Source: a virus. From it: 23,704 nt of DNA. The notes beneath the pieces were generated by a model. It was not told where the DNA came from. It saw only the letters and a list, made by a program, of their open reading frames with translations, and searched no databases. The DNA lies in IMG/VR virus record IMGVR_UViG_3300030103_000415, positions 1-23,704 of that record. One strand, 5' to 3'. Positions 3,678 through 22,409 of this stretch are shown piece after piece; position 1 is the stretch's first letter, and every line of letters begins with the position of its first letter. Position numbers and translations under genes: made by a program.

Positions 3678-4193
3678 GTGGCAGAAGAATACTTTGACGA
3701 TTTTAACGTTGCACCACCCGGTCACTCTTTGACTGAGGACAACAGCAAGTGGCCTTGGGGTCGTCCGCCTGAGATGGTAGACCCAGACGAGGCTTTGGAT
3801 GCGACTATCGAACAACTGATGGACCCAAAGAAGAAGCAGGAGATGTTTAAGCTGCTGATGGTGGGTGTGTCTGTTGAAACTATGGTTGAGGGCATGATAT
3901 TCACTGCATTTCGTGACGGCAAGTACACCCCAGATGTAGGCTTGCTCCTCAAGGCTCCGCTTGGTATAATGATAGCGGATATGGCTGAAGAAGCGAATAT
4001 ACCGTATCGCCTGTTCGAGAACGACAACGAACTTGATAAGGACGAGATGAATGACGAAACTTTTGTTCGCATGATGAAAGATAACAACCCACAGATGTTC
4101 GAATACGTTCGCGAAAACCTAAATGCTGCCCTTCGTGCTGGCAATCGTCCTATGGAGTCTAACTTTATGAACATGAAGCGGGGAGAAGACTGA
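3678..4193 (+). CDS. Acidic virion-associated protein, unknown function
   Basis: A 171-aa protein starting with GTG at 3678, preceded by GTAGGAGACTGAC, a strong and well-spaced ribosome site that decides the start. The N-terminus is acidic (MAEEYFDDFNVAPPG), followed by a helical core with LLMVGVSVETMVEGMIFTAF (about 60-79) and KAPLGIMIADMAEEANIPYR (about 92-111). The acidic linker is NDNELDKDEMNDE. Proteins with this 'VETMVEGMIF ... G.Y.PDVGLLLKAPL' pattern occur next to the large internal proteins in marine podoviruses, but no function is known to me. Its TGA overlaps the ATG of the 702-aa gene (TGATG), implying coupled translation and perhaps a shared assembly. Confidence 0.68.
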   Translation: MAEEYFDDFNVAPPGHSLTEDNSKWPWGRPPEMVDPDEALDATIEQLMDPKKKQEMFKLLMVGVSVETMVEGMIFTAFRDGKYTPDVGLLLKAPLGIMIADMAEEANIPYRLFENDNELDKDEMNDETFVRMMKDNNPQMFEYVRENLNAALRAGNRPMESNFMNMKRGED

Positions 4194-6301
4194 TGGGTAT
4201 TTTTGCATCCTTTGCTACAGGTTTCCTAGAGGGTTCTGTTCAGGTTCAAAAAGAAAAGGCTGCTGCGGAATTAGAACAGCAAAAGACAGATAATGAACGG
4301 CGAGACAAGCTGGGTACGATTGTATTTGACCTGATTAAAGACGGTAAACTTACAGGGGACCAAGGGTCAGAGTTGCTGGGAAGAAGCGACCTGACACGAG
4401 CAGATATTGCTGGCATGGTTAATATGGTAGAAGATGTTGGTAACTCACATCTGTTGGGTGGGTTTAAATTAAAAAACAACTTTGATGACATAAACAACCC
4501 AGACCAAAAAGCAGAAAACTACCTTACTACTTGGAACACACAGTTCGCAACTCCAGAAACTCGTTCTTCTGCCATACAGTTCTATAAAGAAAAAGGTGAT
4601 GCTAAAGCTGCATTAGCGCAGATTGACTCTTTTGAAAAAAACTTTCTTCTTGCAAATTATGCACCCCCGCAAGGTGGTAAATCAGTTAAGGTGAGTTTAG
4701 AAAAAGGATTTCCTGAACTGTATGCTTTTAAACAAGACCTTACAAAGTTTATAGGGGGTCAGTTTAGAGACGACGTAGATAATATGTTAGACCTACACAC
4801 AACAAATAACGATATAGGTCAACACGAAACTTTAGTTATGTTGCCTAATCAAGATAATAACTTCATACTCCCAACTCAATCGGAGCAAGCAGAGCAGTTG
4901 GATAATCTCGCTAATGTTATACTTCCTAAGGGTGGAAGTCGACATCATTTAATGTCACGAATGGGTGAGTTTAGTTATAATGAAAATCCTAATCTTCAAG
5001 CGCAAGGAATGATACACTCAGCAGCGTTGTTACAATTAGGTATTCAAGACTTCAAAAAAAGCCCAGATGCGAGAGCAGCAGTATCAGATTATCTAATAAA
5101 CACTGTTGCACAAGGTGACCCAGATGCAAATGTAGATAAGCTAATAGCAGCAATCTACCCCATATATCAGAAAAATTTCCAAGTGGATGCTATGGATGAC
5201 CTACTAGGAAGTACGCAGACACCGATGGAATATTTGGGTACTAAAAGATATAATGATACCAGAGGTACATACGAAGCTGCTGATAATGTAGATAAATTAG
5301 GTGAACGGCTTTTTAAACTTAGGTCTGAAGGTAAAACTTCTGGAATTTGGAGAGCAGTTACTGAGGGTATAGTAGGCTTGACTTCTAGCACAGGGCAGCT
5401 ATCTCAATTTTCGCAATCCGTCATAGGCATGGGTTCTGGAGTTACAGACGCAAATGACGCAAGAAATATTGTTTCTATAGACGGAAAAAATTACACTCAA
5501 ACAACCGCCGAAAGTATTGCAGCCATTGCAACAAAATATGGCTATAGTGCCTCTGAACGTATTGGTGAGATGCAAGCTCTAGAATTTAACCTAGCTGTTC
5601 AAATTGCCCGTGCTGCTGACCCTAGCGGTCGTCTGTCTAACCAAGATTTCGAAAATGCCTTGAAGCAAGTAGGTAGAGCAGGTGCGTTTGCTAGTTTAGA
5701 AACAGACCTCAGTGCGTTAAAAACTACAATAGAGGTCAATAGAGATAAGAAGAAAAAGCTCCAGAGGGTATATGACCTGACAAACAAAAACGTCGTGGAA
5801 AGAGAAGACAAGATTGCTCTAGAAATACACGAGACAATAATTAAAGATGTAATAAAGTTAAACAAACAAAACTCTGTAGCAACAACACCGGAAGTTGAAA
5901 TTGCCAAACCCCCTGTAGATGTAAACGCAGTTACAGGTGGCACAAATGTTACCGCAGACTATGACCTACCTCAAGGCACTGAATATTTTGTAACCGACGA
6001 GGGTGGTTTCTTAGTTACAGATGGCGAGGCTGTTGCGGTTACAGATGAAAACAGACCCATTTATAAAGAGACACCTAAAGATAATGCTGCAGCAGCATCT
6101 CCTGTCGTTGCTCAACCTAAACAAGATGTTACCCCACAAGTCCCTGCTCAACCAGTTCAAAGCGGTGTGATAGACCCTAAAATGTTTGCTGGGAAGATGC
6201 AGACTCCTGTTGCAAATGGTCTTGTTAAATTTGAGGGTGACGATATACTGTATAAACCCGTGTTAACTGAAGGTGTAATAACCGGATATGAGGCTCAATA
6301 A
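4193..6301 (+). CDS. Internal virion-type protein (702 aa)
   Basis: A 702-aa protein starting MGIFASFATGFLEGSVQVQK, with a long charged helix after it (about 15-45). The middle is mainly helical. Around 440-510 it has an 'IAAIATKYGYSASERIG ... LEFNLAVQIARAADPSGRLS' segment, which recurs in large internal or ejection proteins of marine phages. A basic coiled coil (about 510-555) leads to a Pro/Val/Thr-rich C-terminal 120 residues that look flexible. I see no peptidase, lysozyme or other catalytic motif. Its ATG overlaps the upstream stop (TGATG) and its TAA overlaps the start of the 1608-aa gene (TAATG), so the two large proteins are probably made in fixed proportion. By position and size it resembles the gp15-type internal core proteins of T7-like phages, which are ejected with the DNA; this is inference, not sequence homology I can show. 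Confidence 0.68.
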   Translation: MGIFASFATGFLEGSVQVQKEKAAAELEQQKTDNERRDKLGTIVFDLIKDGKLTGDQGSELLGRSDLTRADIAGMVNMVEDVGNSHLLGGFKLKNNFDDINNPDQKAENYLTTWNTQFATPETRSSAIQFYKEKGDAKAALAQIDSFEKNFLLANYAPPQGGKSVKVSLEKGFPELYAFKQDLTKFIGGQFRDDVDNMLDLHTTNNDIGQHETLVMLPNQDNNFILPTQSEQAEQLDNLANVILPKGGSRHHLMSRMGEFSYNENPNLQAQGMIHSAALLQLGIQDFKKSPDARAAVSDYLINTVAQGDPDANVDKLIAAIYPIYQKNFQVDAMDDLLGSTQTPMEYLGTKRYNDTRGTYEAADNVDKLGERLFKLRSEGKTSGIWRAVTEGIVGLTSSTGQLSQFSQSVIGMGSGVTDANDARNIVSIDGKNYTQTTAESIAAIATKYGYSASERIGEMQALEFNLAVQIARAADPSGRLSNQDFENALKQVGRAGAFASLETDLSALKTTIEVNRDKKKKLQRVYDLTNKNVVEREDKIALEIHETIIKDVIKLNKQNSVATTPEVEIAKPPVDVNAVTGGTNVTADYDLPQGTEYFVTDEGGFLVTDGEAVAVTDENRPIYKETPKDNAAAASPVVAQPKQDVTPQVPAQPVQSGVIDPKMFAGKMQTPVANGLVKFEGDDILYKPVLTEGVITGYEAQ

Positions 6302-9300
6302 TGGTTGACATTTCTCAAATACCACAGAGAAAAGACACAGCACGATTACCTACAGCGTTTGAACAGCCAATCAGAGGTCTAGGTGGCATGGGTCCTGTAT
6401 TGGTTGACTTGCCTACTCTTGCAGAAAAAGACATTGCAGTACAAACAGGCGCACAAACACAGGACACTCGTAGTTCATTCGAAGATTTAATATCGTCCAC
6501 TACCGCCGAAGAGATAACCTCCAAGGGGGTTACCATGCTGGGCAACACGCCTATTAGCCCCATCATTCTTCAGAAAGCGAGAGAAGACAAAGCTTTCAAA
6601 GCAAAGCTGTACGAAAGTTATGTAAGGTCTGACGCGGTTCCTACCATAGAAGAAGATAGACTTGCTGTTCCCTTCTCCTCTCCTGACTTAACTAAAATAC
6701 GTAGACCTGCCGAAATACAATCGCAACCACAGTGGGTTCAAGATACTTTTGACAGGGCTGTAACTAGAAGTCAAAACATAGCAAAGATATTTCAACAAGA
6801 TTCTCCTATTCCGTTGGCAGGGCAGAAGATTATCTTAGACGACTTTAAAACAGGCAGTTTAGGAGAAGAGGTAGCTCGTTCACTAAAATCTATACCCGGA
6901 GATTTTGCAAGGCTTCCTACTTTAGCTGTTGCAGCGGGGGGTGCTGCAGCAGGACTATACAACGCTAAGATGAACGACAATCCAGACACGGGTTTTAAAG
7001 AAGATTTTACAGAAACATTCGAGGGCGTTATGACATCCTACGGTTCTTTCGATACCGTACAGGCGTATGAAGAAGCCTTGCAAAACAGTGTTATACTACG
7101 TAACTCTGAAAAACGTGTACAGGAATGGTATAAAGATAGCTTTATCAAGAGGTTTGGGCAAGATGCTTGGACGGTTGCACATCAACGTCCTTCCTATAAG
7201 ATAGAAGAAGACGAAAAGGGCAATAAATCTGTAGAGCCTATTTTAAATGCAGATGGTAAGCACGTTATGGAAGATGTAGGGTTGCCTCCTGAAATTGCAT
7301 CTAGTCTTGTTGAGATGGCATATAACGAACTTACTGGCACACAAAAGGCCGTATCAATATTTGCTACACAAGCACCTTTTACTTTGGGATTAACTATGCG
7401 TAGTATTTCTAAAGGACAGAAATATATAGATAAGGTTACAGAAGCACGTAAACAAAAGCCCGGAACATATGGTTCAGATATGTCCGACTATGATGTTTTT
7501 GTAGCTTTGTCAAAAAAAGAAGGCAACATAATTACCCGAACTTTTCAAAAGGGGTGGGCAGCAGCTACTCTTGGTAAGATTGCCAGAGCAGGTAAAAAAG
7601 AATCGATGACTCGTGCTGCTCGTGTTAATGACCATCTAAAAGTTTTAGATGAGTATACAACAAATATTAACAGATTAAAAAACGATATTGAAGTAGCAGG
7701 TCCGTGGTCCAAATTAAATACTGCACGAAAACTAGAAGATGCTAATAAAGAGTTGCAAACCTTAGAGAAGGGTTTGAAAAGCTACACTAGGGGCAAGGGT
7801 AGAGGTTACTTTGATAATCCTTATACTAGGGGTTTGATTGCTGATGATGTAGTTATATCTACGGCTATAGGCTATGCACCTACCATTCTTGATTGGTCTG
7901 GTATAGGTTTAGATGAGGGTACAGCAGAAGTTTTAACAGGAATAGTTACTCCTCTGGTAACTCCTGCAATGTTACCCGCAGGTAGAGGACTCCTATCTGT
8001 AGGCGTATCTGTAACTAATAAGTTTACAGACGGAACAATAAAAGACATAGCTCTAACTTTTGAAAACGCAAACTATCTGCCGTTTATAACAGAGGGTATG
8101 CTCGTCAGAGGTGATGAGGGTGCTATGCGTAGAGCGATGGCAGATGCTGGCGAAGAAGTAACAGACGAACAAATACAGTCGTTTACAACAATGGCTGGTA
8201 TCTTTAAAACTATGAAACCAGAAGCACGTATTAGAAGTTATAATGCTTTGCGTCAATACAACGACTTAATGTCTCGAACTCAAAAACGCATGGAAGAGTT
8301 GTATCTCACTGATGCTAGCGGTATGCCTATAACAGATGAGAAAGCCATACAGGAATCCTACACTGAAATAGCAGCTAACATGCGTACCTTACATTTAAGT
8401 CTGGCAAAGGCAACAGGACTCGCTCCATTGATATCTGTCCAGTACATAAAGGGAAATCAACTAAAGCCAAGTGATTTAACCAAGCCCGGAACTATGGACG
8501 ACATTTTATCTGCACTTGCTAGAGAAGAAGACAACTACAGAGGCATGGATACTCTCCTCAAAACGATGCAAGGAAGATTTGCAAAGAAAGGCATAGAATT
8601 AGACAGCAACGAACCTCTGCAAGCTATGATGGCTCAGATAGAACAGGTTGTCGTAGATGGTAGAGTTGGTGTTAACGTTAAGAAACAAGAGATGCAAAAA
8701 CTGCTAAATCAGTTTTACAACAGCACTGAAACTATAGATGAAGACACAGTTAAAAGAATAGTAGACCTAGAGATTGCTTTAGAGGATTCTGCTATAAGAG
8801 ATACTATTGACAGAAGTAAGAAAGCTGCAGAGGTTTCCTTAAAACTAACAGAAGCAGCCCGTGTACAAGGACGCACTCTCCTTGCTGCTGCTGAAACAAT
8901 GGACGAAAAAGGCGTGTTGAAAAGCATCCGCCCTATTGCTGATAAGTTGTTTGATATAGAACACGGACGTAGGAGAGCGTTAGGTTCTGTAGGCTATAGA
9001 AAAGCGAACAGATATGTACCGGAGGGTTCTGACCAACCTGTTTCTGTAGACATGACTAATGTTGTACGAGAGCTTACCAACTTATCCGATGATTTGCGCG
9101 GGAAGCCCTTGAGCTTTATGTTTAGTGGAGGTCGTCAATTCTTTGGTCGTGCAGGCGGTGACGCATTAGAAAAGACATTTGAAAACATGGCTAGGAAGGG
9201 TCTACAGGAAACTTTTCAAGCAACGGCAGAAGCCACAGGGACCACCGGAGAACAAGCTGCTCAACTCATGTTAAGTGCAGCGTTAGAAAATGGTGACATA

Positions 9301-11127
9301 ACAAGAGCTAGTTATGCTGAATTGGCAATGTTTATGATAGATAATGCAGCCGAAGAAAGTGGTGATATATTTAAGTATTTTAAAGCTACTCCTGAAGAAG
9401 CAGAAGATGTTTATCGTTATTTTAGAGACAGAGCCGCATCTTTAGACCCTGACAAATCTGGAGAAATTGCTAGGTCATTTACCGGTGTTATTAACAAAGC
9501 GTTCGAAGATACAGACCCACAACTTGCCCGTCTTGTAAGAGAAGCTCGTGATAACTATCAAAAAGTTATGGGCTATCAGATGGACAAGGGAAGGTATATG
9601 AGTGATGTTTTAAACTCTAGACAGCGCAGAAATGTAACAGAACAAGCACCAGAAGAAGGCGCACATTTTTATAGAAACATTCAAGGTCGTCCTGAAGCAC
9701 CTTTTATACGTATATCAAAAGCATTTCAAAAGCTGGCAGACACTACAGATGAAGTGAAAATTTCTGAATTAAAAGATGAGATAGCAGAACAAAAGAATAG
9801 GATAATGTTCTTTTTGGGAGCTGAAAGAAATAGTGCTGGAGAGTACGTATTTGACCTTAGAAATTCTAGGCAGCGTAGAGCAGCAGATGCCGCGCAATCT
9901 ATGATGGAAGCCCTTATAGGGAAGCGTATGATAGCTCAGTATAGAAATGAAACAAAGGCCATGTCAGAAGTTCGCACACTATTAAGTGGAGAGAGTCCTG
10001 AGACTGCTAGAGATGCGGTGATGGCTGTTCAAGAAGGAAGTGCTAAGTATGATTTTAGCCGTGCTAAACGAATTACAGATGCAGAGAAAATACTTACTGT
10101 TCCTGTCATAGAAACAGATGGTAGTGATGGTGTTCGTGTGTTAGGTATGAGCGACCAAGTGCGGGGTTTTACCGCAACTACAGACGACCTGCTTCGCCAG
10201 AGTGACAAAGCTAAAATTGAGTTTAGGAATATTAAAGCAGACGTAGAAAATACTGGTAGCATTATAAGAATTGCTGCCCAGCAAGAAGTAGACGTATCCA
10301 ACGCCGCACTTAAAAAGATGGAGCAAATAGAAGCTTTAACACAAAGACCGCAGGATTTCTTTGACCGTGTGTTTGAAGGTCAAACAGTGGATAGTTTAGA
10401 TGGTGTTGTAGCTAGATTTAAAGCTGGTGGCATGTCTGAACAGGAAATTCAACAAGGCTTGAAGTATATGTATATTCGCGGCTTGTATGGTAAGGCAGGT
10501 ATGACATATAACAAAATGGTAGGTCAAACCGACGCTATTCAAGAAGTTGCAGATATCAACGTACTAATAGACCATGTTAATGACCCTACAAAAAGAAGAA
10601 TTATGTCTCGTGTTCTTGGAGAAGACCACACAGAAGAATTGAAAGACATGGCTGAGTGGGCTAAGTTTGCATCGGGAGATGGCTACGGTTTTAGAGCGAG
10701 TCCTGATACAAGAGGTATGTCAATAGACAGCATGTTTGCTAGAGTCTTCAACCTAGCTAGAGGTATGGTTAGCCCTCTTTACTTGGCTACTGAAGTATCT
10801 GCACGAATAATGCTTGCTAGAAATCAAACTCTTGTTAACCTAGCCTTAACAGACAGAGAAGCTGCTAGAATTATAAACAACATATTGGTGAGACCTGAAT
10901 CTGCAGAGATACCTGTTTCTGAATTAGAGGCTCTGGCAGCACGTATGCAGAACTATATAGCAACTGACTTGATAACTAGCGGAGGAGAAATACCTAACTT
11001 AGATATTATGTTGGGTGAACGGCCTGATATATCAACACCAGAAGATGTGATAGAGGCTGAAAAACAAGAAGAACAAGAAGAGATGGTTCAGATTATAAAG
11101 GGTGAAAATGATGATGAACAAGAATAA
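6301..11127 (+). CDS. Giant internal virion / DNA-ejection-type protein (1608 aa)
   Basis: This 1608-aa protein is the largest in the window. It is mostly helical with long charged stretches. Weakly hydrophobic, small-residue-rich segments occur near 200-220 (LPTLAVAAGGAAAGLYNAK) and in roughly 520-590 (VISTAIGYAPTILDWSGIGL, then a VTPLVTPAMLPAGRG stretch); such segments could cross a membrane after ejection. Near the end, FNLARGMVSPLYLATEVSAR resembles the C-terminal 'ARG.VSP.Y.ATE' signature of giant internal proteins of marine podoviruses. The last 30 residues are strongly acidic. Length exceeds T7 gp16 (1318 aa). I looked for a soluble lytic transglycosylase signature at the N-terminus and did not find one. 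Likely role: part of the internal core or ejection conduit. It overlaps the preceding and following genes, and its stop lies inside the T-tract of a terminator on the other strand. Confidence 0.7.
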   Translation: MVDISQIPQRKDTARLPTAFEQPIRGLGGMGPVLVDLPTLAEKDIAVQTGAQTQDTRSSFEDLISSTTAEEITSKGVTMLGNTPISPIILQKAREDKAFKAKLYESYVRSDAVPTIEEDRLAVPFSSPDLTKIRRPAEIQSQPQWVQDTFDRAVTRSQNIAKIFQQDSPIPLAGQKIILDDFKTGSLGEEVARSLKSIPGDFARLPTLAVAAGGAAAGLYNAKMNDNPDTGFKEDFTETFEGVMTSYGSFDTVQAYEEALQNSVILRNSEKRVQEWYKDSFIKRFGQDAWTVAHQRPSYKIEEDEKGNKSVEPILNADGKHVMEDVGLPPEIASSLVEMAYNELTGTQKAVSIFATQAPFTLGLTMRSISKGQKYIDKVTEARKQKPGTYGSDMSDYDVFVALSKKEGNIITRTFQKGWAAATLGKIARAGKKESMTRAARVNDHLKVLDEYTTNINRLKNDIEVAGPWSKLNTARKLEDANKELQTLEKGLKSYTRGKGRGYFDNPYTRGLIADDVVISTAIGYAPTILDWSGIGLDEGTAEVLTGIVTPLVTPAMLPAGRGLLSVGVSVTNKFTDGTIKDIALTFENANYLPFITEGMLVRGDEGAMRRAMADAGEEVTDEQIQSFTTMAGIFKTMKPEARIRSYNALRQYNDLMSRTQKRMEELYLTDASGMPITDEKAIQESYTEIAANMRTLHLSLAKATGLAPLISVQYIKGNQLKPSDLTKPGTMDDILSALAREEDNYRGMDTLLKTMQGRFAKKGIELDSNEPLQAMMAQIEQVVVDGRVGVNVKKQEMQKLLNQFYNSTETIDEDTVKRIVDLEIALEDSAIRDTIDRSKKAAEVSLKLTEAARVQGRTLLAAAETMDEKGVLKSIRPIADKLFDIEHGRRRALGSVGYRKANRYVPEGSDQPVSVDMTNVVRELTNLSDDLRGKPLSFMFSGGRQFFGRAGGDALEKTFENMARKGLQETFQATAEATGTTGEQAAQLMLSAALENGDITRASYAELAMFMIDNAAEESGDIFKYFKATPEEAEDVYRYFRDRAASLDPDKSGEIARSFTGVINKAFEDTDPQLARLVREARDNYQKVMGYQMDKGRYMSDVLNSRQRRNVTEQAPEEGAHFYRNIQGRPEAPFIRISKAFQKLADTTDEVKISELKDEIAEQKNRIMFFLGAERNSAGEYVFDLRNSRQRRAADAAQSMMEALIGKRMIAQYRNETKAMSEVRTLLSGESPETARDAVMAVQEGSAKYDFSRAKRITDAEKILTVPVIETDGSDGVRVLGMSDQVRGFTATTDDLLRQSDKAKIEFRNIKADVENTGSIIRIAAQQEVDVSNAALKKMEQIEALTQRPQDFFDRVFEGQTVDSLDGVVARFKAGGMSEQEIQQGLKYMYIRGLYGKAGMTYNKMVGQTDAIQEVADINVLIDHVNDPTKRRIMSRVLGEDHTEELKDMAEWAKFASGDGYGFRASPDTRGMSIDSMFARVFNLARGMVSPLYLATEVSARIMLARNQTLVNLALTDREAARIINNILVRPESAEIPVSELEALAARMQNYIATDLITSGGEIPNLDIMLGERPDISTPEDVIEAEKQEEQEEMVQIIKGENDDEQE

Positions 11128-12119: not shown

Positions 12120-12405
12120 GCTCTCCCCCTGTTCCTCTACCAAGACCACCAAAGTATTGCGGCCTTTTACGTGCAACCTCAAACGTGGCTACGGTTATTA
12201 CTATACCAGCTATTAGGATACTATGCAATAGCGCACTTACACCAAATACAGTGATAGACCCTAAATACATAGAAAAGATGATACACCACATCCACGCGAG
12301 AAGTTGCATAACAAGATGTCGGGTACTCATATCAGGTATATTTCTCAAGGGGTTATGTTTACTATTCATAACCGTGTTCCAAGTATCGTGTATAAACTTA
12401 TTCAT
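12112..12405 (-). CDS. Two-span membrane protein of marine phage type
   Basis: A 97-aa protein starting at ATG 12405, which shares one base with the reductase stop (TGATG); the GTG at 12408 is discounted. A polar N-terminus with NPLRNIPDMSTRHLVMQ (about 18-34) is followed by a hydrophobic segment with LAWMWCIIFSMYLGSITVFG (about 36-55) and a second one with LLHSILIAGIVITVATFEVA (about 59-78). A short basic/Gly tail follows. The 'NPLR.IPD.STRH.VMQ.LAWMW' pattern recurs in short membrane proteins of marine phages, but no function is known to me. Both ends probably face the same side of the membrane. Location next to NrdJ seems to be positional only. Confidence 0.68.
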   Translation of the reverse strand: MNKFIHDTWNTVMNSKHNPLRNIPDMSTRHLVMQLLAWMWCIIFSMYLGSITVFGVSALLHSILIAGIVITVATFEVARKRPQYFGGLGRGTGGEHE

Positions 12406-14333
12406 CACGCAGCACTCAGGTCAACAACTTCACACACACCGGCTGTACAAGCAAGTTCGCGGGAACCGCTAGTGTTGTCTTCTTTCTCAAATAAACTTAG
12501 CTGGTTCCAATCTAGCTTCACGCCTTTGTATGTTTGCTGCCATTCAAGATAGTCTTCTTTTTCAATATCCTGATAGGGGGCCTGCTGGTAGGTGTGGTCG
12601 CTATGCGGTAAGAACGATACCCCAGAGGCTACATCAAAGTTCTTATACACCCACGCACCAACATCCATCCACTCGTCTTCCTTGACAGAGATAGTTACAG
12701 AGGGCTTGTGTTCGCACCAGTGGATAGCATATGTCTTCCACAGTTCTAGTTGTTCTATGGCTGACATCTGGGTTCGCGTTACGGCGTTGCCGGGAGATTT
12801 CATAGCGAACGAAAACACAGTAGTTGAGTCTGGTTTCATCACGCAGCGTTCGTGTGGTACACCCGCTTCAATCATAAACTGAGTTAGCGGGTCTTTGTTG
12901 TCGCCGCGAACTGTCCTGATATAATAATCGTTGTGCCGTGCGTGAATACCACTAGCGGTGTCGGTTAGCTGTGACACAGTACCCGACGGCTTTACACAGG
13001 TGATTGCAGCGGACACTGGGATTCCAAGCATGTTCGCATACTTGTCGTTCGTCTTGACGGCCTCTTCTCGCATCTCTTGTAGCCACTTCTTGCTGTCTAC
13101 GTTCTTTGACAAGACTGCGTGGTCCATAATACCAGTCAAGGATACGCCCAATAAACGTTCTTCCTCTGTGTTCTTCTTCCATACGCTCCTCAGATACTTA
13201 AAGTCTGTTAGGGTAGATTGTAGGGTTCCTAGTATGGTTGCTAGGCGAACCTTACGCTTCAGGCTATCTAGGTCATCTGTCTCACGAACCATCACCTCTG
13301 ATAGGTTGCAGAACTGATACGGACGTAGAATTATTTCAGAACACGGATTAGTACCCCACATATGTCCTGTCTCCCGCCGTTCATTCTGAGCAACCTGTTT
13401 GTCAGCAGCCTCACGGTTGAACATACCACGTTCACCAGACTTGCTTTCGTACAAAGCAACCCACTCTCTCATGAACGTACCAATCTCTGGCTTACCTTTG
13501 TAGGCTACAGAGTTGTTAGCCAAAGCACGTTGGCCCTCGTTCTCCCACCACATACCAGACTTAGCATGTGCCATTTGGTCGTCGTTTAAGTTCGACAGAC
13601 TAATCAAAGCTGACCGTCTGACTCCCCCTACAACTACAATCTCGCCAATCTTACACATCAAGTCGTGACACTCGATAGGAAATAGTCTACGTCCCTGTGC
13701 TTTCTTGAATGTCTCTACAGTAAAGCGGAACAGGTCATCAAGAGGCTGTGGCCCAGATGCTCTACCGCCCATTGTTTTTAGACGCTCACCAGCAGCACGA
13801 ACCTGTGACATATCCCACGTAGGAATCTGTCCTGCATACAGCAACGCAATTAGTTCGCGAAGTGACTTGGCCCAGCCGGGTTTCGAATCGCCAACCTTGA
13901 TTACAGTATCTGTCTCGTGCATAGCGTCGCTAACCACAGGCAGCTTGTCTACGTTCTCACGCTCTACTGAAAATCCTACGCCTGTGCCGCACATAAGAAT
14001 ATACATACACTCGTCAAACGAACGTGGGCTGTCTACAGGTATATACGAGCAGTTGTATCCTGAGATATTGTCACGAGCAAGAGCAGGACCTGAAGTCATC
14101 ATAGCTCTCATAGACGGCATTACTTCGAGGTTTAAGACGGCCTCGCGAATCTCTTCTACATCCTTCTCAGGCAGTTTGAAGTTATGCTTCCCGCGAACTT
14201 GATTAGCCATAAAGTCAACATAACGGTCAACTGTCTCATGCCAATCCTCACGACGTTGCTCGGAATCCAGCCAACGTGCATACCGTGACTTGTGGATAAA
14301 TTGTTGGTAAGTGGTAGGTAACATATTACTCAT
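12405..14333 (-). CDS. nrdJ: Class II (B12-dependent) monomeric ribonucleotide reductase
   Basis: This 642-aa enzyme reduces ribonucleoside triphosphates to deoxy forms using adenosylcobalamin and supplies dNTPs for phage replication. It matches the monomeric Lactobacillus leichmannii type. YNCSYIPVD carries the first active-site Cys (C95), and a MCGTGVGFSVE loop follows (about 114-124). NPCSEIIL gives C331 and E333, and QFCNLSEV gives C342. The spacing C331-C342 equals the C408-C419 spacing of the Lactobacillus enzyme. The C-terminal tail has the C-x4-C redox pair (C629, C634). ATG 14333 is used because it overlaps the zinc-ribbon gene and follows AGAGAAG; the frame extends ten codons further upstream. 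It is shorter than the 739-aa Lactobacillus enzyme but has every catalytic Cys. Activity would depend on cobalamin in the host. Confidence 0.95.
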   Translation of the reverse strand: MSNMLPTTYQQFIHKSRYARWLDSEQRREDWHETVDRYVDFMANQVRGKHNFKLPEKDVEEIREAVLNLEVMPSMRAMMTSGPALARDNISGYNCSYIPVDSPRSFDECMYILMCGTGVGFSVERENVDKLPVVSDAMHETDTVIKVGDSKPGWAKSLRELIALLYAGQIPTWDMSQVRAAGERLKTMGGRASGPQPLDDLFRFTVETFKKAQGRRLFPIECHDLMCKIGEIVVVGGVRRSALISLSNLNDDQMAHAKSGMWWENEGQRALANNSVAYKGKPEIGTFMREWVALYESKSGERGMFNREAADKQVAQNERRETGHMWGTNPCSEIILRPYQFCNLSEVMVRETDDLDSLKRKVRLATILGTLQSTLTDFKYLRSVWKKNTEEERLLGVSLTGIMDHAVLSKNVDSKKWLQEMREEAVKTNDKYANMLGIPVSAAITCVKPSGTVSQLTDTASGIHARHNDYYIRTVRGDNKDPLTQFMIEAGVPHERCVMKPDSTTVFSFAMKSPGNAVTRTQMSAIEQLELWKTYAIHWCEHKPSVTISVKEDEWMDVGAWVYKNFDVASGVSFLPHSDHTYQQAPYQDIEKEDYLEWQQTYKGVKLDWNQLSLFEKEDNTSGSRELACTAGVCEVVDLSAA

Positions 14334-14484
14334 CGTCTTCTCTTTCTTTTGGATAATATACATTTACATCACTGTTACAATTTGGACAGTGTAAATTAGT
14401 TACTATGCTATACTCAGAATCCTCTTCTGATATATCGTGGTCTCCGCCCCAAATTAATTCTGTTCTACAATGCCAGCAGTTCAT
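14326..14484 (-). CDS. Zinc-ribbon protein (52 aa)
   Basis: A 52-aa protein on the minus strand with two CxxC pairs: C3/C6 in MNCWHCRTELIWGGDHD and C33/C36 in LHCPNCNSD. This is a complete four-Cys zinc ribbon. An acidic linker (ISEEDSEYS) joins the two halves, and the end is charged (PKEREDDE). Similar 'MNCWHC.TELIWGGDHD' proteins are frequent short genes in phages and proteobacteria, function unknown. The ATG overlaps the DUF3310 stop (ATGA), and its stop lies 8 bases inside the nrdJ start, so it is embedded in the nucleotide-metabolism cassette. It could bind nucleic acid or another protein through the zinc site. Confidence 0.82.
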   Translation of the reverse strand: MNCWHCRTELIWGGDHDISEEDSEYSIVTNLHCPNCNSDVNVYYPKEREDDE

Positions 14485-16213: not shown

Positions 16214-17101
16214 TCAGATACTCCGGTTGACTATCTTAGTGTACCAAGCCTTCGGTGGGAACTTAGCTTTAGACGTAATCTTATCGTGGTATTCTGCGTT
16301 CTTCCAGCAGTTCTCCTTGAATGAACAGAAGGTGCAGGTCTTTGGCATTAGTTTGTTACCCGTAAAAATCTTCTCGCCTTTAACGGTGTAGGATTCGTCA
16401 GTTGCCTCGAAAGGTATCTTGAACTTATTATCCTTAAGAAGGCTCTCCACGCGGCTCCTAGCGTCAGCAATGTACGTTTTACGGTCCTCTTCTTGGTCAG
16501 CAGGTGCTTCAACAAAATCCCACTCGCCAGACGACTTATTAATTGCTATCCAACCGCCAAAAGGCATGTCCTGTGATTCTGAATATAGATAGCCCTGCAT
16601 GATGTAACCAAAAGGGTCATCTTCCTTGATTACATCGTAACCACCTCGTCCTGAAAACTTATTGTCAAAAGACCACGGGCTAGTAGACTTGATATCCCAA
16701 ACTTTCTTTTCTCCATCATCCATGATGAGGTCAAGAGTACCCTTAATCTTCTTCTCACCCAGTTGAAGTTCGCAAGGTGTTTGGGTATCAACCACCTTAA
16801 CACCAGCAGCCTTCATAACAAATACGGCAATCGCCTCAACAAGGTCGCCCATAAGAAAACGCATGATATCATTATACGCAACCTCTTGAGTGTGGCCCTG
16901 CTGTTCCATCTTCTGTTGACACAGAGGACGGCCCAGACCTGACATACGAATACGATAGCCACCACGAGATGACAATTGCTTTCGCAAGGAGTCTTTACAA
17001 TCTTCCCCAAACTGCTCTATCAGGTCGTCAAAGCGGGAAGAGTCAATCTCCCCCCGCCCTGCTTTCTTTAAGAAGTCCTGTATTTCTACAAGAGCAATCA
17101 T
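16214..17101 (-). CDS. Cas4/RecB-like PD-(D/E)XK exonuclease with four-Cys cluster
   Basis: A 295-aa nuclease with the RecB/Cas4 motif set. E89 lies in MGDLVEAIAVF, D124 in IKGTLDLIMDDG and D136-I-K138 in KVWDIKSTSPW. Q169 and Y172 lie in YIMQGYLYSES. One Cys (C61, GRPLCQQ) precedes the nuclease core and three follow it (C256, C259, C265 in TCTFCSFKENCW). This 1+3 arrangement is that of the iron-sulfur cluster in Cas4 and AddB nucleases. Metal-dependent degradation or end-processing of DNA is expected, in the place where T7 has its gp6 exonuclease. Its ATG overlaps the upstream stop (ATGA). There is no cas1, cas2 or CRISPR array here, so it is a replication/recombination nuclease and not a CRISPR adaptation gene. 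Confidence 0.9.
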   Translation of the reverse strand: MIALVEIQDFLKKAGRGEIDSSRFDDLIEQFGEDCKDSLRKQLSSRGGYRIRMSGLGRPLCQQKMEQQGHTQEVAYNDIMRFLMGDLVEAIAVFVMKAAGVKVVDTQTPCELQLGEKKIKGTLDLIMDDGEKKVWDIKSTSPWSFDNKFSGRGGYDVIKEDDPFGYIMQGYLYSESQDMPFGGWIAINKSSGEWDFVEAPADQEEDRKTYIADARSRVESLLKDNKFKIPFEATDESYTVKGEKIFTGNKLMPKTCTFCSFKENCWKNAEYHDKITSKAKFPPKAWYTKIVNRSI

Positions 17102-17971: not shown

Positions 17972-19504
17972 TTATACCTCAAACACAGCTTCTAAGTCAA
18001 GCCAGTTTTTTCCCATTTTTAATTCTATTCCTACAGGCATACTGTACTCCTTGTTATACCTACGTTTTGTCTCCTGTGGCAAACACAACATTGCCTTAGA
18101 CATAACCTGAATACACTGCTCTTCCTCGCCGGGATACACATCAATTACAATAGAATCGTGTACTGTGTTGCAAATAACAGACTGCATGTTCTTCATGTCA
18201 TGGTGTAGTTTGACAAGAGCCATAGGCAACAGGTCTGCAGTAGCAAAGCCTTGTACAGGATAATTACAGATAGCTGTGCGATTGGTAGCTGTACCCCACT
18301 CAGTCCACCTAGCATCTGGGAAAGCATATTGTCTGCCTGATGGTAAGGTAATTTCTTTCTTGGTAACAGCATCTTTCTGTAAGGACTTGTGCCATTCAGT
18401 AACGCCGCGATACTTCTCCTTGAACGCCCGGTAGTAGCGTTGCTGGTCATCTGTACCACTAACACCCCCATACAGAGGTTTAAAGGTGTGTGCTTTCGCT
18501 TCTTGTCTTGTACAACCAATCACACTAGCAGTGTAGCTATGAACGTCTGTGCCAGCTTCTACGTCCGTTAAGATACCATCGTCGTTAGCAAGGTAACCAG
18601 CAACTCTAAACTCTAGCTGTGCATAATCACCTTCTAATATCTGCCCACCCTCGAACCTGCTTTCTACTGCTCTGCGGATAGCAAAGGTAGAACCACGAGG
18701 CATATTCTGAAAGTTAGGGTTGCGGCTAGACAACCTGCCAGTTGCCGTAACGCACTGCATAAACTCTGTGTGGATGAATCCGTTGCCATCCATGTTATTC
18801 TCCATCCCCTCAACAAAGGAACGCAGATAGGTTCGCAGGGCAGAGTATCGTATATAAGACTGCGCGAACTCACGAGCATCACCCCGCAAGGACAGTGACA
18901 TGTCTTCTAGTGTCTCCTTGTCAGTCTTAAAACCACCCGCCGCAACATCAAATGCGTCACGAGGAACCATCTTAAAACCTGCAACCTCACCCGTATTCTC
19001 ATAAACCACACCTTTACCCGAACACGTTCGGCATATTCTAACAGCTTTTCCAACAGTTCCATCCTTCTTTAATGGGTTGTATCTACCCTTGCCATTACAG
19101 TTAGAACACTGTGAACCTACTGTCTTGTAGACCACATCAGTCTCTCGCAACACATGCCCTTTGAACTCTGCACGGGACATACGCCTACGCATCTTGGGTT
19201 TCTTAGTTGCACCGCGCATCTCATGACCAAGGTTGAATATCTCAGCCCACGTCCTCTTGTCAGCAACTTTGCAAGAATACATCAGCATAGACCTGTCGTC
19301 TGGGCTGTCAAGATTGACGGGAGTATCTCCCATAGCATACTGGGCTAGTTCATTTAATCTGCGTTCTAGCTGAAACAGTTCTTGTTCATATTCTTCGCGA
19401 ATCTCAGCTAGGGTTGCTTTGTTTATCTTAATGCCGTTCTGTTCGATGTGAGCCAGAACGCTTGTCATTTCAAGCGATAATCTTAGTGTCGGTATCAGTG
19501 TCAT
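17972..19504 (-). CDS. Family A DNA polymerase (polymerase part) with DnaJ-type zinc insertion
   Basis: From ATG 19504 this is a 510-aa polymerase without its own exonuclease domain. Family A motifs are clear: TATGRLSSRNPNFQNMP (about 253-269), motif A DYAQLEFRVAGYL (D293), motif B RQEAKAHTFKPLYGG (R333, K337, F341, Y345) and motif C NTVHDSIVID (H449, D450). F341 corresponds to E. coli Phe762. Motif C has Ser where E. coli has Glu883. Residues 133-165 contain two CxxCxGxG units (C133/C136 and C158/C161), half of a DnaJ central zinc domain, inserted before the palm. HMO-2011-type phages have such a polymerase. The exonuclease is the upstream gene in the -2/+1 frame, overlapping by 35 bases; together they total 702 aa, close to T7 gp5 (704). 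TTG 19531 is a possible earlier start. Confidence 0.93.
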   Translation of the reverse strand: MTLIPTLRLSLEMTSVLAHIEQNGIKINKATLAEIREEYEQELFQLERRLNELAQYAMGDTPVNLDSPDDRSMLMYSCKVADKRTWAEIFNLGHEMRGATKKPKMRRRMSRAEFKGHVLRETDVVYKTVGSQCSNCNGKGRYNPLKKDGTVGKAVRICRTCSGKGVVYENTGEVAGFKMVPRDAFDVAAGGFKTDKETLEDMSLSLRGDAREFAQSYIRYSALRTYLRSFVEGMENNMDGNGFIHTEFMQCVTATGRLSSRNPNFQNMPRGSTFAIRRAVESRFEGGQILEGDYAQLEFRVAGYLANDDGILTDVEAGTDVHSYTASVIGCTRQEAKAHTFKPLYGGVSGTDDQQRYYRAFKEKYRGVTEWHKSLQKDAVTKKEITLPSGRQYAFPDARWTEWGTATNRTAICNYPVQGFATADLLPMALVKLHHDMKNMQSVICNTVHDSIVIDVYPGEEEQCIQVMSKAMLCLPQETKRRYNKEYSMPVGIELKMGKNWLDLEAVFEV

Positions 19505-20048
19505 AAAATAGTTCCTCAAACGATGAGCCAAAGGCTTTGAGTTGTGCTAGTGCTACATCTTCTGTAGCGATTACATCTGCAATCCCGTACTCTACTATAG
19601 TATCCCACGGTATGTCAAAGAATGTTTTACCTTCCTTAAAGTAGGGGCTGATGAGGTCTTTCTCTTTCTGAACGCCGCCGTATTTATCAGCAACAGCAGA
19701 AAGGCTAAGTGACCAACGTCTTGCCTTGGCAAGGATGTACTCAGCAACCATCGTGTCGTACACATGTCCCTCGTACTTGAAGTTGCACTCACGTATCCAC
19801 GATAAGTCAAACTTGATATTGTGACCTACAACTACGTCAGCAAGGTTTAGGGCATCTTGAAATATATTGAAGCCATCCTTGCTAGGTTGCTGGGTACTGT
19901 GGTCAAAGCAAAGGTAGTGTACCTCTTCAATGCCCAACCATTTGTAGCCCACAGAGACAAGTGTGTTACCGAAGTACGGCAGGGGTGTAGATGAACCATT
20001 GGGTTTCTCCTTGTGGGTTGTCTCCACGTCAAACGTTAAGACTCTCAT
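19470..20048 (-). CDS. 3'-5' proofreading exonuclease domain of the polymerase (DEDDy)
   Basis: A 192-aa protein with the three DnaQ-like exonuclease motifs: Exo I LTFDVETTH (D7, E9), Exo II VVGHNIKFDLSW (N77, D81) and Exo III YGIADVIATED (Y154, D158). The last has the Tyr spacing of the DEDDy class, as in PolA-type proofreading domains. It should remove misincorporated bases for the neighbouring polymerase. In T7 and, as I recall, HMO-2011 this domain is fused to the polymerase; here the frame closes at TGA 19472-19470, while the polymerase frame is open from about 19540. The start ATG 20048 overlaps the preceding gene stop (ATGA). Whether the product acts alone, is joined by +1 frameshifting, or is split by a sequence error is unresolved. 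Confidence 0.9.
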   Translation of the reverse strand: MRVLTFDVETTHKEKPNGSSTPLPYFGNTLVSVGYKWLGIEEVHYLCFDHSTQQPSKDGFNIFQDALNLADVVVGHNIKFDLSWIRECNFKYEGHVYDTMVAEYILAKARRWSLSLSAVADKYGGVQKEKDLISPYFKEGKTFFDIPWDTIVEYGIADVIATEDVALAQLKAFGSSFEELFYDTDTDTKIIA

Positions 20049-20326
20049 TCTGACCTCAGTTTTTTTGTCTTAAAGAAGTTGTTATACTCTGAAAACTCTT
20101 CATTAAACATTCTAGCATAGTATGCCCTATGGTTGTTAGACAGCTTAAAGGAATCTTTTGATTTTGTTTCTATATCTGTGTGCCATCGTATGCGTTCAAA
20201 GATTGCGTTAACACTATAGTGCTTTCTACCTGAACGTATTACGTCAAAAGAGAACATCTTAAATAGTTCCCACACTTTTGGATTATTGTCATGAAACTGT
20301 TGAAACTTATCTTGTAACTTATTCAT
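20045..20326 (-). CDS. Conserved small phage protein (93 aa), unknown function
   Basis: A 93-aa protein from ATG 20326, which shares a base with the helicase stop (TGATG); the upstream extension to 20380 lies inside the helicase gene and is discarded. The pattern is NPKVWELFKMFSFDVIRSGR (about 14-33), HYSVNAIFERIRWHTDIETK (about 35-54), and FKLSNNHRAYYARMFNEEF (about 59-77). This 'NP.VW..F...F..I..G..HY....I.ERIRW.T' series recurs in many phage and prophage small proteins; I know no assigned role. It is mostly helical and basic. Its place between helicase and polymerase exonuclease suggests a replication accessory, by association. Confidence 0.75.
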   Translation of the reverse strand: MNKLQDKFQQFHDNNPKVWELFKMFSFDVIRSGRKHYSVNAIFERIRWHTDIETKSKDSFKLSNNHRAYYARMFNEEFSEYNNFFKTKKLRSE

Positions 20327-21564
20327 CAGTAGTATACTCCCGTATGTACATCTATGTGGCTGGTAAACATGCCATGCCACCCGTTTAGTTTGTTCTTAGA
20401 GATACAGATGTGTCTTGCTGTATTCTCTTCCTCAGATGTTCCTGTCTTCCCTATCCCAATGATAACGTCTGCTTCACCAGCTTTACCAGTTCGAGAACCA
20501 TCTAACATGGCGTAGTCGATAAACTGTCTGTCGTGCGCTTCGAAGCTGGCCTGTGAGACTGACCATATCAGAAGTTTATTACGCTTGGCAATCTCCCGCG
20601 CAACTACATAGGTTTCCTTCAAGCGTTCATCACCACGATTAAACTCACCAGAAACCCTAAACTTATCAAGCTGGTCACAGAACATAACGTCCGGTTCGTT
20701 TAGCTGGGCGTATTCGTTTAGTTCTTCCATAGATGTACCTACAGAGTCCATGACAACGAGGTATGGTGCTATCTCTTCGTCGTAGCGTTGCTGTAATGTG
20801 TGCTGTTCTTCTATCATCTGCTGTCGTGTGCGTTCGAAAAACGATTGGATGATACGTAACTTAATCTTCTCAGCAGGCTCCTCGTTTGCCCAGTAAACCA
20901 CCTTGTGCTTCTGCCTAACGTAGTTCGCGGCAAGAAAAGCACAGAACGTTGTCTTACCTACCTCTGGACGAGCAAAGATGATGCCAAGGTTGCCTCTGTC
21001 CATGCCTGACAAATGCTCTGACAGCAAGTCCCAATCAAACGGGAAGTCAGGGTCACCTGTTTCTTCTTGCACTAATTGTGTAAAGTCTTTGTCCATTTCA
21101 CTATACGTTGTCTTATCTGTCATCCGCCCATCTTCAACCATGTCGATAAGCGTCTTAAGTTCGCCGAAGTGTTCTGATTCGCCAGTGAAGATAGCAATCG
21201 CTTTCTCACCAATCTGTCTGGCTCTGTCTCGAACCCAGAAGTTCTTAACCACATCGTGTTCGAGGGCCATCTCCTCAGATATGTTCGTGGATAGGTTGTC
21301 CAGTATGGTATATATTTCGTGTACTGCGCTAGATGGCATGGCAGGGTTGCGGTCACTGACCAGTGCCGCCACCTGATGAGGGTGCATATCGACACCGTAT
21401 TCCTTGTGACCATAGGTAATCACGTCGAATATGGTAGCATCCCGTCCTGCGAACATATCTTTTGTAATAATGTTCTTTACTTTATTGTAAAACTCGTGGT
21501 TGAGCATGAAGCCCAACACCTGATGCTCAAGTGTACTTTGCGAGGACTCGCTCTCTTGTTGCAT
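20326..21564 (-). CDS. dnaB: DnaB-like replicative helicase
   Basis: A 412-aa RecA-fold helicase that unwinds the fork 5' to 3' as a hexamer. An N-terminal helical domain (about 10-160) contains the DnaB-N-like STLEHQVLGFMLNHEFY. The C-terminal domain has Walker A ARPEVGKTTF (about 198-207), the NEEPAEK motif with the likely catalytic Glu (about 227-233), Walker B PDVMFCDQLD (D297), VSQAS (about 336-340), and a GSRTGKAGEADVIIGIG motif (about 356-372) with the Arg-finger region. Walker A has Ala in place of the first Gly of the usual GxxxxGKT. Primase is encoded just upstream with a 38-base overlap, so primase and helicase are separate proteins, unlike the fused T7 gp4. The ATG has AAAGGA upstream. 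Confidence 0.93.
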   Translation of the reverse strand: MQQESESSQSTLEHQVLGFMLNHEFYNKVKNIITKDMFAGRDATIFDVITYGHKEYGVDMHPHQVAALVSDRNPAMPSSAVHEIYTILDNLSTNISEEMALEHDVVKNFWVRDRARQIGEKAIAIFTGESEHFGELKTLIDMVEDGRMTDKTTYSEMDKDFTQLVQEETGDPDFPFDWDLLSEHLSGMDRGNLGIIFARPEVGKTTFCAFLAANYVRQKHKVVYWANEEPAEKIKLRIIQSFFERTRQQMIEEQHTLQQRYDEEIAPYLVVMDSVGTSMEELNEYAQLNEPDVMFCDQLDKFRVSGEFNRGDERLKETYVVAREIAKRNKLLIWSVSQASFEAHDRQFIDYAMLDGSRTGKAGEADVIIGIGKTGTSEEENTARHICISKNKLNGWHGMFTSHIDVHTGVYY

Positions 21565-22324
21565 TATCCATGTCCTTTATGTCTTGATTTAAAATCATCA
21601 TGTTAGTAGGCACAATGCCTTGTAATTTTCTTACAATTTCTAGGGCCTTTTGGGTAGCATCCTTATCAAGAGCTACAAATACCTTGTCGTAGTTCTGCAA
21701 TACTTTGACGTGAGTGTCAAGAAGGTTCGTCCCAAGCAGTGCTACGCCCGAAAAAACATCAGATACACAGCAAGCACTAGCACAATCTTCGACAAGAACA
21801 GCGATACGTCCCCTGCCGCAAACGAAAGGATTACCTGACTTTCCATATCTCCACCACTTCGGTTTCTCGTTAGTTAATGTTCGGCCTGCCGCATCGACCA
21901 CACGCTTGCCATCCGTGATGAGGTAGACAATTCGATTACGTTGGAAATCGAACCGCAAGTCTACCCGACCATCTAAATAGGCATCGTAAGCATGTACTCG
22001 TTTGAGGTAGTCCACTGATTCTTGGCTACGTGTTATCGGAACGAACGTGCTTGGCATTTCAAAAGTAGCACAGTACGTAACAGCAGCATCACTCTTGTTG
22101 TTTCTTTTCAGTAACATAGGATGTGTTGTTACATCCTTGGTTAACCTGAAGCCTGTACGACCAGAAGCAGTACAGTCAGCATGGAAGCAATGATATAAAC
22201 GTTGCCCATTCTCTTCTCCTACACTAAACGTGTTCTTCTTTCCGCAAACAGGACAATCCATCCGCATCCGACCATTCGGTTGCAAAGGCAAGTCCATCAC
22301 GAAATCTTTAATCCAGTTAGCCAT
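21527..22324 (-). CDS. TOPRIM DNA primase, zinc-finger type
   Basis: A 265-aa primase, the first gene of the minus-strand operon. The N-terminal zinc finger has C24/C27 (MDCPVCGKK) and C46/C51 (YHCFHADC). The TOPRIM domain follows with E179 (VLVEDCASACC) and D220/D222 (VFVALDKDA). It should make RNA primers for lagging-strand synthesis with the neighbouring helicase. Length matches the primase half of T7 gp4. I chose ATG 22324; the frame is open to 22405, but that part runs through the promoter region. The promoter predicts a transcript starting at about this ATG, so it may be translated leaderless. Its stop overlaps the helicase gene by 38 bases. Confidence 0.9.
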   Translation of the reverse strand: MANWIKDFVMDLPLQPNGRMRMDCPVCGKKNTFSVGEENGQRLYHCFHADCTASGRTGFRLTKDVTTHPMLLKRNNKSDAAVTYCATFEMPSTFVPITRSQESVDYLKRVHAYDAYLDGRVDLRFDFQRNRIVYLITDGKRVVDAAGRTLTNEKPKWWRYGKSGNPFVCGRGRIAVLVEDCASACCVSDVFSGVALLGTNLLDTHVKVLQNYDKVFVALDKDATQKALEIVRKLQGIVPTNMMILNQDIKDMDNATRERVLAKYT

Positions 22325-22330
22325 GACATA

Positions 22331-22359
22331 TCCATACGACAAACTAAAAACACTGTCAA
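22331..22359 (-). promoter_or_regulatory. Promoter for the minus-strand replication operon
   Basis: On the minus strand TTGACA (22359-22354) is followed by exactly 17 bases and TATGGA (22336-22331). The -35 is a perfect sigma-70 consensus. Only six bases separate the -10 from the primase ATG at 22324, so the expected transcription start falls at about the A of that ATG. The spacer shares TAGTTT and GTATGGxTA with the promoter at 23085-23113. Confidence 0.65.
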
Positions 22360-22377
22360 CATGATTTTTTTGTTGAC
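22355..22377. repeat. Inverted repeat formed by back-to-back -35 boxes
   Basis: GTCAACA (22355-22361) and TGTTGAC (22371-22377) are perfect inverted copies separated by nine T-rich bases. Each arm contains most of the -35 element of one of the two divergent promoters. The symmetry could be chance from two consensus -35 boxes, or an operator that switches both operons; the ribbon-helix-helix protein encoded just downstream (22576-22791) is a candidate binder, by inference. Confidence 0.6.
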
Positions 22378-22401
22378 GGCAAATCCAGTACGTGCTAATA
22401 A
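22373..22401 (+). promoter_or_regulatory. Promoter for + strand early genes
   Basis: TTGACG (22373-22378) is followed by 17 bases and TAATAA (22396-22401), with TGC directly before the -10 (extended -10 type). It would transcribe the genes from 22452. The -10 matches the consensus at only three of six positions. A perfect TATAAT at 22428-22433 lies nearer the gene but has no recognisable -35 17 bases upstream, and it may serve as an alternative -10 or as AT-rich melting DNA. Confidence 0.5.
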
Positions 22402-22409
22402 CCAATATA

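Follow-up and report, generated by a model that had tools for sequence, protein, structure and literature searches.

The window analysed here, the whole 23,704-nucleotide stretch of IMG/VR virus record IMGVR_UViG_3300030103_000415, encodes a proofreading exonuclease and a family A DNA polymerase in two overlapping frames of the minus strand. Do these frames specify two subunits, are they joined by a +1 ribosomal frameshift that also yields a fused enzyme, or was one gene broken by a one-base sequence error? All three options had been put forward in the initial annotation of this DNA. They were compared using the split and fused relatives of the locus, the signals at the junction, and predicted structures of both proteins.

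Organization of the replication operon

The minus-strand replication operon runs in the order primase, helicase, small ORF, exonuclease, polymerase. Its first two members are a Toprim-like primase gene (21527..22405; phrog_47, DNA primase) and a DnaB-type helicase gene (20326..21564; PF03796). The small ORF 5' of the exonuclease (20045..20326; phrog_13625, no function assigned) starts at ATG 20326, which has a good Shine-Dalgarno sequence and overlaps the helicase stop; its own stop overlaps the exonuclease start, ATG 20048, as ATGA. The stand-alone gene for a DEDDy 3'-5' proofreading exonuclease (19470..20048, minus strand; 192 aa; PF01612, phrog_403, phrog_17; AlphaFold fold) ends at TGA 19472-19470. 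The family A polymerase gene (17972..19504, minus strand; 510 aa) carries a DnaJ-type zinc insert and lacks an exonuclease domain. Its start codon, ATG at 19502..19504, lies at the boundary between the exonuclease and polymerase domains, so placed that the two genes overlap by 35 nt (19470..19504) with the polymerase +1 relative to the exonuclease.

On recheck, the ORFs, coordinates and relative frame of the initial annotation were correct, as were its candidate polymerase starts (TTG 19531, ATG 19504, ATG 19468), its summed length of 702 aa (192 + 510, counted from ATG 19504) and its domains (PF01612 on the exonuclease; PF00476 and a DnaJ CXXCXGXG insert on the polymerase). The polymerase frame had been described as open from about 19540; it is open there, and its actual limit lies slightly farther upstream, at 19549, preceded by the in-frame stop TAG 19552-19550.

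Two of the three parts of an HMO-2011-type polymerase are found in the polymerase ORF: the family A domain (PF00476, E=1e-48) and a partial DnaJ domain, represented by the motifs CSNCNGKG and CRTCSGKG, by invariant zinc-insert residues (C133, C136, C158, C161) and by a PF00684 match that falls below Pfam's cut-off (E=1.2e-4). The third part, an exonuclease in the same polypeptide, is missing; a separate exonuclease ORF is present in the window, as in every scorable split relative.

Elsewhere in the window, a gene resembling Cas4-domain exonucleases (phrog_1990; 16214-17101) lies downstream of the polymerase, and an adenosylcobalamin-dependent ribonucleotide reductase of the RTPR type is encoded at 12405-14363 (TIGR02505, below its cut-off). 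Neither of two long ORFs on the plus strand (702 and 1608 aa; 4193-11127) has a PHROG match. Plus-strand genes converge on the minus-strand replication genes, the two sets meeting near 11.4 kb.

Conservation of the split and signals at the junction

An IMG/VR scan with the window polymerase returned 80 relatives (74-96% identity), and the same split was found in all 78 that could be scored at the junction. Scans started from other members, plus a DNA-pattern sample, raised the collection to 114 distinct split junctions (related sequences, not independent events), and all scorable relatives of the window polymerase were split. The DNA-pattern sample, drawn without ranking by similarity, comprised 26 split and 24 fused loci. 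Every split member recovered is a metagenomic contig from an uncultured phage; among named phage records there was no near relative (top polymerase identity 46.6%), and a host search in bacterial genomes gave a single distant match (31% identity). One locus, L156, was excluded from the split set: the short gap inside its exonuclease domain (L156:1981-2528) interrupts an otherwise fused polymerase and is probably an assembly fault.

A single-base sequencing or assembly error in one fused gene could be suspected from the window itself, where a TTTT run stands just 5' of ATG 19504 and removal of one base joins the frames. The run is mostly absent in relatives (TATTCAATG), however, and error is refuted because more than 100 distinct junction sequences share the arrangement; the probability left to it is negligible. 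Had the window been a broken copy, its close relatives should have shown one continuous frame, as the initial annotation reasoned; the opposite was found, the close relatives being split and fused genes appearing only at about 57% polymerase identity or less. Transcriptional slippage was also rejected, 81 of the 114 junctions having no homopolymer longer than 3. Judged from these sequences, the exonuclease/polymerase split is real and inherited.

The polymerase has a start signal of its own near the exonuclease stop, as in coupled gene pairs. In the window, the Shine-Dalgarno sequence GAGGAA (19512..19517, minus strand) lies 7 nt upstream of ATG 19504, within exonuclease codons E178-E179. Within a set distance of the domain boundary, a start codon whose predicted Shine-Dalgarno energy was at most -5.5 kcal/mol was present in 109 of 111 split loci versus 3 of 184 fused loci (boundary placed approximately in fused loci that were matched through other queries), which again argues against a sequence error. 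Of 116 distinct split sequences, 113 encode E178 with GAG, compared with 48% GAG among glutamate codons of the exonuclease interior; other conserved glutamate columns have a majority codon in 61-86%, and the adjacent E179, part of the same Shine-Dalgarno sequence, is GAA in 90% (a descriptive bias, given without a formal test as the sequences are related). Across split relatives, the polymerase start codon switches between ATG, GTG and TTG while GAGG is mostly kept at 9 or 6 nt, as independent initiation predicts. From the overlap, translation of the polymerase is probably coupled to that of the exonuclease.

A conserved GCCTTTGGC block is located 5' of the Shine-Dalgarno sequence (window 19544-19504). 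A weak consensus hairpin in the same interval would pair part of the Shine-Dalgarno sequence; hiding of this site by an RNA hairpin is kept only as an idea because covariation is absent.

If +1 ribosomal frameshifting were programmed in the overlap, a fused exonuclease-polymerase would be made besides, or instead of, the separate proteins. This would fit the +1 position of the polymerase, which the window shares with most split loci, the common stop context GCT TGA, and the retention of the +1 relation through most of the main clade, a pattern that low-level frameshifting could equally yield. Against it stands the variability of the junction. The +1 overlaps range from 8 to 68 nt (35 nt in the window), and two lineages use the other frame: L274, with a 4-nt TTGA stop/start overlap, and L269, where one of the candidate starts gives an ATGA overlap. 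The exonuclease stop varies in codon and position, the reading frame ending at GTGAGTAG in L195, eleven bases from where the polymerase ATG begins in L323, and further downstream in L295. In three lineages, unrelated ORFs in inserts of 0.4-1.25 kb part the two genes: a PDDEXK_14 endonuclease gene in L290 (L290:4406-4856, locus coding strand), and, in L294 and L329, a stretch of about 1.25 kb containing several small ORFs (L294:1091-2270 and L329:2299-3484, coding strand). No conserved slippery motif was seen at the split junctions, and the stimulatory structure, judged from a predicted consensus RNA fold, had no covarying pair (no pair changed on both sides). A conserved frameshift is unsupported because none could span the other-frame lineages and the inserted genes. 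The mechanism was rejected as a conserved one and is improbable overall; low-level frameshifting in the window itself is possible.

Function of the two halves and history of the proposed fission

The exonuclease could alternatively be a decaying remnant, leaving a polymerase that acts without proofreading. Its C-terminal tail does drift freely: in residues 182-192, encoded by the overlap, exonuclease-frame pN mostly exceeds pS by a wide margin, the pattern expected where constraint acts on the polymerase frame alone. The remainder of the protein does not look like a remnant. The DEDDy motifs DxE, Nx3D and Yx3D are present, and the catalytic residues (D7, E9, N77, D81, Y154, D158) are invariant in every distinct split sequence covering them (112-118); pN/pS of 0.09-0.34 indicates purifying selection; and the exonuclease is retained upstream of the polymerase in 133 of 133 testable loci. 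The protein modelled alone with AlphaFold has a confident fold (mean pLDDT 90.5) that matches Klenow-type exonucleases, with a last helix at 177-181 and a predicted disordered tail (residues 184-192, pLDDT below 50). Decay is accordingly very improbable. The polymerase modelled alone (pLDDT 88.1) matches Klenow/Bst fragments and starts almost directly at a helix (residues 4-23). By sequence and model, both halves look functional, and the exonuclease presumably proofreads for the window polymerase through its predicted 3'-5' activity.

In a synonymous-constraint scan of the exonuclease, constraint rose in the overlap and peaked again in the interior near codons 115-119; because of this interior peak, only the results for the Shine-Dalgarno codon and the overlap were taken from the scan. 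The interior stretch of unusually conserved synonymous sites lies at window 19709-19686 (exonuclease codons ~114-120).

Exonuclease and polymerase share one frame in HTVC033P-type (79), HMO-2011-type (78) and CRP-3-type (24) contigs, and in 6 of 6 cultured relatives examined. They are also fused in an L482-type group (L482-L526), whose polymerase is about 53-57% identical to that of the window. In alignment, the site of the split corresponds to the linker that joins the two domains in the fused relatives. In an 80-row polymerase tree, one branch parts split from fused sequences (support 100/99; bootstrap not fully settled). When the L482 group was included (47-row tree), this fused group was placed between the L269/L313 pair and the remaining split lineages, with support of 87/82 and 84/80; a single split clade was not rejected (AU p = 0.114).

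These results are best explained by an ancient fission at the exonuclease/polymerase linker, which very likely left two overlapping and probably coupled cistrons whose products would most likely form a two-subunit proofreading family A polymerase. The ancestor of the marine group would have had a fused gene of the HMO-2011/HTVC033P type, cut at the linker between the domains, each half becoming a cistron of its own. The exonuclease would be translated first and end in a short, unconserved tail; the polymerase would initiate independently at ATG 19504, using the GAGGAA that lies within the final conserved codons of the exonuclease, and its translation would probably be boosted, via the overlap, by ribosomes translating the exonuclease. 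The two proteins would most likely work jointly. What the alignments support directly is that the ORFs are separate, conserved and maintained by selection, each with a start signal of its own; from these features we infer that translation is coupled, that the two proteins reassemble physically and that proofreading takes place in trans. Of the options in the initial annotation, the two subunits are supported by the conservation of the split at 114 junctions and by a polymerase start and Shine-Dalgarno sequence of its own, while the one-base error is contradicted by the relatives and a fused frameshift product finds no support in the unconserved frame relation, stop and junction.

At least one fission occurred on this reading of the trees. 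Exactly one is not proven, because the place of the L482 group beside or inside the split group is weakly supported. As variants of the fission history, at least two independent fissions, or a single fission followed by re-fusion in the L482 group, would account for a fused group sitting among split lineages in the 47-row tree; given the support values there and the AU result, such a history is conceivable and somewhat doubtful. Re-fusion is possible for L482-L526.

Comparison with known systems

In the literature searched, no description of an exonuclease/polymerase split like that of the window was found; other kinds of split phage polymerase are known. In HMO-2011-type polymerases (Puniceispirillum phage HMO-2011, Pelagibacter phage HTVC033P and Roseobacter phages CRP-x), exonuclease, partial DnaJ and polymerase form one polypeptide (PMC9038755). 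The window shares with this type the homologous exonuclease and polymerase, the two CXXCXGXG motifs between them and, in most cases, the adjoining helicase gene (PMC9038755), but its exonuclease is a protein of its own. The published survey of this type set a minimum alignment length of 80%, and its DNAP phylogeny admitted only sequences longer than 540 aa (PMC9038755); it would pass over the split polymerase because 510 aa is below that cut-off.

Surveys that rely on full-length polymerase genes can in this way miss the split group. A large lineage of marine phages appears able to do without the covalent linkage of exonuclease and polymerase that is standard for T7-/Klenow-type replicases, and it would offer natural two-piece forms of a compact proofreading polymerase; with natural fused and split relatives at hand, the role of the linkage in proofreading becomes testable.

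A precedent for reassembly is the split gp43 (43A/43B) of the T4-related Aeromonas phages 25 and 44RR, in which the replicative polymerase is likewise made as two polypeptides; in phage 25 the two gp43 halves co-purify and are active as a polymerase (PMC2988022). Unlike the window enzyme, gp43 belongs to family B and is divided by intercistronic sequence or a homing endonuclease, with no overlap at an exonuclease/polymerase linker. The MEP401-type OM43 phages, also marine, have a family A polymerase in two ORFs, but their break interrupts the polymerase domain itself and a small ORF separates the pieces; the exonuclease remains joined to the first half, and there is no DnaJ part (PMC10580990). 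In phiKZ-type jumbo phages, a stand-alone exonuclease is found alongside a polymerase without its own, as in the window (PMC7824862). Those exonucleases pair with divergent family B polymerases, whereas the window exonuclease is a DEDDy enzyme apparently derived from family A fission.

Phage exonuclease subunits annotated as such exist, since the window exonuclease matches phrog_403 (E=2.7e-14) and phrog_192, both named 'DNA polymerase exonuclease subunit'; in contrast to these families, its strongest resemblance is to the exonuclease portion of fused polymerases (phrog_17, E=9.2e-27). In Escherichia coli, the epsilon subunit of Pol III (DnaQ) is a separate proofreading exonuclease, of the DEDDh type, that serves a family C polymerase. 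The window exonuclease resembles DnaQ in being separate from its polymerase and differs in its DEDDy type and its putative origin by fission of a family A enzyme. We tentatively suggest that this marine phage group may have made the built-in proofreading domain of a family A replicase a separate, dissociable subunit, with proofreading tunable by protein ratio or used in trans, and so arrived independently, from a Klenow-type enzyme, at an arrangement like that of Pol III epsilon.
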